Source: Candidatus Melainabacteria bacterium (GTDB lineage: Bacteria > Cyanobacteriota > Vampirovibrionia > Obscuribacterales > Obscuribacteraceae). From it: 64,000 nt of DNA. The stretch covers positions 1 through 64,000 of the forward strand of contig PLZS01000082.1 in NCBI GenBank assembly GCA_003153555.1. The letters run 5' to 3'. The notes beneath the pieces are model-generated. The model was not told the DNA's origin. It saw only the letters and a program-made list of their open reading frames with translations, and did not search any database. A program made the translations under genes and the position numbers. This document shows positions 747-3,065 of this stretch, in pieces; within the stretch, counting starts at the first letter, position 1; each line of letters opens with the position of its first letter.

Positions 747-1451
747 CTAGCGCGAAGCTGCTTCGGGATGATTGCGGTTGCGATTCTCTTGCATCACCTG
801 TCGCTGCAATTGGACTGCCGACATGTAGCGCTGATTGGGATCTTCAATCGCCGCGATATTCCGATATTGCTGATACTTCTGCAGCGCACCGTCGAGAAAG
901 CCCAAGTATTTATCAGGGTCGTAGCATATCGATGTGTGCCACTCACTGATGTGCCCTGAGCCGGAAGTTCCCAGAGCTGTGTTCCCATCAGGCGCGATCA
1001 CCACGCTTGTCGTAAACCCATTCCTAGAGTTGTTTGGATGATTGTTTAACCAATTCTGCCAAGGCATAAGTGCTGGCGTATTTGCCGGCCAACCCTGATC
1101 ACTGATGTTATTGTCGACAGCGATAAAGTCTTTGTTGATTTCGTTGATTACTCTATCGTCCGAGAGCGAACTGCCCCGGGCCATGCGACCGCCCATTCAG
1201 CAATCGCCGGCGTTTTTTTCACCATGGAAACCAATCACCAGAAAGACAAGGATCGGCTTATTCTCAGCTCTTGATCTTGCTTTCGCTTGCTCCATATCTT
1301 TGAGCCAGTGAATTTGCGTCCACTTACCTTGGTGCTCACATTGGGTGGCCACCTGACTGAACTGCTGATGTGTCTGCCAATCCCTACATTGCCCTGGCGC
1401 CGCTGACAAAGTCAGCAAGGTCAACATCGTACTCAGAATGCCGTTGCGCAT
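747..1451 (-). CDS. Thioredoxin-like secreted protein with one in-frame TGA (candidate selenoprotein; otherwise an interrupted gene)
   Basis: ORFs 1197..1451 and 747..1196 are contiguous in one frame, separated only by TGA (1199-1197, minus). N-terminal signal-like segment, then '...ENKPILVFLVIGFHGEKNAGDC-[TGA]-MGGRMARGSSLSDDRVINEINKDFIAVD...', which reads as one thioredoxin-like domain. Confidence 0.6.
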
Positions 1452-1584
1452 AACTCACCTTTATTGTCGTCTCGCTAATGAGTCTACTGCGACTAGGCAA
1501 GAAGAACATCCAACGACAGCCATATCTCGCCTGTGACTTTAGTCATGTTTTGCTGGATGTTTTGCCGGAACGTTCTGATAGAAC

Positions 1585-2801: not shown

Positions 2802-3065
2802 CTAGCCGATCTGAATGGTGAGCTTACCCAGCTTCAGTTTGTAGTTCTTCAGGGCCGGGCAGTTGTCGACCCGCAGATTGGTCAACGTGCTCGGCAGCGC
2901 AGGCAGGCTCGTCAGGGCCGGGCAGTTGTCGACCAGCAGATCGATCAACGTGCTCGGCAGCGCAGGCAGGCTCCTCAGGGCCGGGCAGTTATCGACCCGC
3001 AGATAGATCAACCCAGGATGCTCCCAGAAGTACGCTGCCATTGCCTCTTTCGATTCGAAGTACAT
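2802..3065 (-). CDS. Short leucine-rich-repeat protein
   Basis: Repeated 21-aa units 'LRVDNCPALxSLPALPSTLxxL' (bacterial LRR pattern). Confidence 0.6.
   Translation of the reverse strand: MYFESKEAMAAYFWEHPGLIYLRVDNCPALRSLPALPSTLIDLLVDNCPALTSLPALPSTLTNLRVDNCPALKNYKLKLGKLTIQIG

Follow-up and report, generated by a model that had tools for sequence, protein, structure and literature searches.

The sequence analyzed here, referred to as the window, is a stretch of 64,000 nucleotides. Near its start two minus-strand ORFs were found, 1451-1200 (84 aa, ending with ...NAGDC) and 1196-747 (149 aa, beginning with MGGRMARG...), which lie in one frame and are separated solely by the TGA at 1199-1197. 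This confirmed the two abutting ORFs of the initial annotation as well as their common frame and the UGA; the strand, which had been left unstated, is the minus strand. Around the UGA the protein reads ...NAGDC-U-MGGRMARGSSLSDDRV..., with U standing for selenocysteine (Sec). The following features were assigned to the locus:

1454..1460, minus strand: purine-rich, ribosome-binding-like AGGTGAG just 5' of the ATG, by sequence reading
747..1451, minus strand: predicted thioredoxin-like selenoprotein gene, 234 aa and TAG stop, Sec at codon 85; homologues carry the same UGA
1386..1451, minus strand: N-terminal hydrophobic, signal-peptide-like segment MRNGILSTMLTLLTLSAAPGQC, by sequence reading; N-termini of homologues are similarly hydrophobic
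1197..1199, minus strand: in-frame UGA, predicted Sec codon 85; column invariant in alignment A1
1160..1180, minus strand: putative bSECIS hairpin with inner stem 1177-1173 / 1167-1163, loop AGUUC 1172-1168 and, separated by a C-C mismatch, an outer CC/GG pair

The gene was compared codon by codon with its closest homologue (L020, approximately 70% protein identity). The 120 codons 3' of the UGA differed at 21, 13 and 60 first, second and third positions, and the 45 codons 5' of it at 9, 4 and 26, respectively. As judged from these substitutions, the same protein-coding pattern is present on both sides of the UGA and purifying selection persists downstream.

Two other ORFs on the minus strand of the window were noted. 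An alpha/beta hydrolase gene (1585-2292; Hydrolase_4, 82.8 bits) has an open frame that starts late, at profile position 39, and its N-terminal portion may have been lost or moved out of frame. A small ORF (2802-3065) with short leucine-rich-type repeats (VDNCPALxSLPALPSTL) gave no Pfam match.

The UGA codon among homologues and paralogues

With the window protein as query, 26 matches were obtained in 19 of 50 genomes sampled from the taxonomic family, and every one of them contained a single in-frame TGA. When a profile of the thioredoxin-like core (A3) was used instead, the 50 genomes yielded 120 strong homologues (E<1e-20), spread over 37 genomes. Exactly one in-frame TGA was present in 118 of these, located at the Sec column in all those read. 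Aligning homologues at this position, a check proposed in the initial annotation, thus gave UGA in all but two sequences without TGA, which carry a natural Cys (TGT; L117, G031:C80) and a Glu (GAG; L118, G013:C1), the latter with loss of the hairpin. In alignment A1, whose members share 24-70% identity with the window protein, the Sec column was invariant and the preceding residue was Cys, Gly or Thr. The Cys-Sec pair assumed earlier has consequently to be abandoned as the active site of the family, since the preceding Cys is not conserved.

Seven members of the family were found in the host genome (C81, C182, C188, C98, C187, C88 and C132, the last being that of the window). Two of the paralogues (L125 and L126; G000 C182 and C188) have identical active-site regions and lie on different contigs, which may reflect a recent duplication or a mixture of strains. 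A contig scan gave one named relative (L045, JAJPJO010000301.1), the record of which is labeled 'Proteobacteria bacterium'. This label is probably wrong, because the contig encodes the same protein as G026:C424, and genome G026 is placed in the family of the window.

The SECIS hairpin and the selenocysteine machinery

The hairpin as first quoted (CCGGGG/UCUCGG) pairs nucleotides 21-26 with nucleotides 35-40 (numbering starts at the U of the UGA; window 1179-1160). A hairpin is indeed present, with the register one pairing inward (GGGGC-AGUUC-GCUCU) being better supported; here the loop begins 24 nt after the UGA. Loop size, position of the G, spacing, stem length and energy all lay within the published bSECIS limits, for which criteria and consensus were taken from PMC13188914. 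By itself, the hairpin of the window is weak evidence on the sequence statistics, and conservation across homologues is what exceeds chance. Of all 2,385 TGA triplets in the window, 32% are followed by a hairpin that resembles a bSECIS and has at least 5 bp, and 7% by one that passes the energy limit as well; measured against synonymous recodings, the window hairpin was marginally better (p=0.05).

The four codons at +8 to +11 from the UGA (GGC AGU UCG CUC) showed no difference in any of 60 comparisons between members of the window's group, while identity at other 4- or 6-fold degenerate positions that encode the same residue was 75/227 (33%) in this comparison set. With all groups pooled, these codons were identical in 70% as compared to 33%. 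The hairpin of group 2 has a six-nucleotide loop (GAGAGC-CGKGUC-GCUCUC); 97.6% of its pair cells were standard, a value which dropped to 38-69% when the register was slid, and a G-C to A-U double change was present in the stem of the CUTNAR-type sequences of this group. A wholly substituted stem (GGAUAC-CGUGAC-GUAUCC) at the identical distance from the UGA was found in L071, a sequence that belongs to another class of this phylum. The same-genome paralogue L039 carries an uninterrupted 8-bp version of the window hairpin, and the hairpin of homologue L021 is weaker still than the mismatched one of the window.

The host genome is a metagenome-assembled genome (MAG) of 7.84 Mb in 208 contigs (87% complete, 7% contamination). 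A genome search for selA, selB, selC and selD, as recommended initially, found all four above the curated cut-offs: selA with 532.7 bits (cut-off 268), selB with 304.6 (242), selD with 365.4 (125) and selC as a tRNA-Sec of 95 nt with 73.5 bits (47), which ARAGORN likewise called tRNA-SeC with anticodon TCA. These genes are located on contigs other than that of the window, and the paralogous selenoprotein gene C98 shares a contig with selB at a distance of approximately 19 kb. The tRNA-Sec most likely belongs to this genome and does not stem from contamination, since the cut-off was passed in 39 of the 50 genomes of the taxonomic family. Family members were present in 35 of these 39 genomes versus 3 of the 11 without tRNA-Sec (Fisher p=1e-4, a value that ignores relatedness); the three exceptions are MAGs of 65, 75 and 83% completeness.

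A pseudogene that arose by mutation of a Cys codon (TGC or TGT) to TGA, or a TGA introduced by faulty assembly, would fit the position of the gene at the contig start of a fragmented MAG and the single natural Cys variant among the strong homologues. This is very hard to reconcile with a single TGA that recurs at the same position in 118 of the 120 strong homologues from 37 genomes, with purifying selection downstream of the TGA, and with constrained SECIS codons in a genome that carries the Sec machinery. A sequencing error or a local nonsense mutation, the latter having been considered in the initial annotation, is excluded in practice, because UGA and SECIS element recur in homologues from many independent assemblies. 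Decoding of the UGA as Trp or by general readthrough appears just as improbable: the column holds Cys or Glu and never Trp where Sec is missing, it corresponds to a catalytic Cys in the alignments, and tRNA-Sec, selA, selB and selD are found together with a conserved hairpin. The interpretation as a selenoprotein with thioredoxin-like sequence on both sides of the UGA is therefore supported by the homologues, the SECIS conservation and the Sec machinery.

Active site and putative function

In the alignment with YyaL/DUF255 proteins the Sec column coincides with the first Cys of CxxC, without a gap to the following SD motif, and in ordinary thioredoxin-like proteins from the same family of genomes it coincides with the first Cys of WCxxC. 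The profile alignments thus place Sec at the N-terminal position of CxxC, which is that of the catalytic residue. The second (resolving) Cys is replaced by Gly, Ser or Ala (UMGG, UPGG, UMAS, USAG, UTNA), and the window's subfamily contains no further conserved Cys in A1. L071 retains the second Cys (UGGC), and this UxxC motif suggests an order from WCxxC via UxxC to UxxG.

The Pfam profiles PF13899 and PF03190 matched the window protein with 15.3 bits, below the gathering score of 27 for both. Weak matches to PF03190 were present in 8 of 9 family members, with a best E-value of 6.5e-5 among the relatives. AlphaFold2 models of the window protein alone and together with one relative were both poor (pLDDT 37 and 40), and the assignment to a thioredoxin-like fold therefore rests on the profile matches below the cut-off. 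Comparison of the window protein with PDB sequences by phmmer gave no meaningful match. The A3 profile matched 3ira (1.3e-4) and anterior gradient/thioredoxin-like chains in the PDB; a match to designed PPR repeats was dismissed as spurious.

Taken together, we consider it very likely that the gene encodes a thioredoxin-like selenoprotein, probably exported, which would act as a single-Sec oxidoreductase and belongs to a lineage-specific set. SelB with Sec-tRNA would read the UGA by means of the hairpin, and the 234-residue protein would leave the cytoplasm via its N-terminal signal. Outside the cytoplasm, Sec85 would serve as the redox nucleophile. A selenylsulfide or a selenenic acid would most likely arise at this residue and be resolved by an external thiol, since UMGG has no Cys three residues on and no other Cys is conserved. 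The protein would accordingly be a peroxide or disulfide oxidoreductase with a single Sec rather than a dithiol thioredoxin.

A selenoprotein in which Sec85 serves a purpose outside thiol redox chemistry, for example binding of metal or selenium or function as a sensor, is rather unlikely. Such a role would agree with the missing resolving Cys, the lack of any other conserved Cys in the subfamily and neighboring genes that are not conserved and hence indicate no substrate. However, Sec occupies the nucleophile position of a thioredoxin-like domain, and redox selenoproteins of the UxxT and UxxG types are catalogued in PMC13188914. The neighborhoods of eight family members had no consistently conserved genes in common, and an assignment of function based on operons was dropped for this reason.

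Selenocysteine in the phylum and comparison with known families

Of 59 genomes sampled from the phylum, 20 encode photosystem II proteins, by which the phylum was identified as Cyanobacteriota. None of the 20 belongs to the window's class, which is therefore regarded as non-photosynthetic. Among six photosystem-bearing genomes tested, none had a tRNA-Sec above the cut-off. A true tRNA-Sec was found in a different class of the phylum (L133, G056:C120), so Sec use in the phylum is not confined to the family of the window.

The thioredoxin-like ORF L071 (G099:C290), with UxxC and a perfect bSECIS-like hairpin, originates from a MAG of 64% completeness. The sole tRNA-Sec hit above the Rfam cut-off in this genome exceeded it narrowly, was called tRNA-Ser by ARAGORN and was not counted; the 47-bit hits of family f2 were regarded with the same suspicion.

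Overall, it seems likely that a non-photosynthetic class within the cyanobacterial phylum uses Sec and has expanded a superfamily of exported, single-Sec thioredoxin-like proteins, in which Sec would first have taken the place of the N-terminal Cys of CxxC and the resolving Cys would then have disappeared, and that a UxxC intermediate with a matching SECIS element survives in another class. Predicted Sec decoding in this branch of the Cyanobacteriota contrasts with a statement in a 2022 review (PMC9312934), where Cyanobacteria are among the lineages that appear to be without Sec use. In the literature searched, selenocysteine was not paired with Obscuribacter or Cyanobacteriota, and papers beyond this set may describe the family; a keyword check of the 2026 catalogue (PMC13188914) found no mention of Cyanobacteria, Melainabacteria or Obscuribacter. 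None of the NCBIfam and Pfam models tested represents the family, and annotation pipelines are likely to truncate its genes at the UGA. A ready set for testing the advantage of Sec over Cys exists in the many paralogues, together with the relative that has UxxC and the two natural variants with Cys or Glu.

Among named selenoprotein models, the VPGUxxT thioredoxin-like (seleno)proteins NF041383 and NF041382 scored best. Both are thioredoxin-like and contain Sec as well, but the window family reached only 12-22 bits where 275 and 350 are required, and carries DCUMGG, TUSAGN or CUTNAR instead of the VPGUxxT motif. The Trx7/PDZ (seleno)protein NF041199 has a Thioredoxin_7-type domain with Sec and matched weakly at the domain start (approximately 13 vs. 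a cut-off of 300). Its motif is CxxU according to PMC13188914, whereas the window family has UxxG, and no PDZ match was found in the window protein. The core aligns with Thioredox_DsbH/DUF255 (YyaL-like, PF03190) and Thioredoxin_7 (PF13899) through the active-site helix; these proteins have CxxC, while the window family has Sec for the first Cys and Gly, Ser or Ala for the second. The hairpins share the limits of the bacterial SECIS elements described in PMC13188914, with stem and loop sequences that are lineage-specific, e.g. GAGAGC-CGUGUC-GCUCUC. The window gene would thus represent a new Sec-containing thioredoxin-like family. Its members would use the standard bacterial machinery for Sec, which was unexpected in this lineage, and they remain far from reaching the cut-offs of the named families closest to them.
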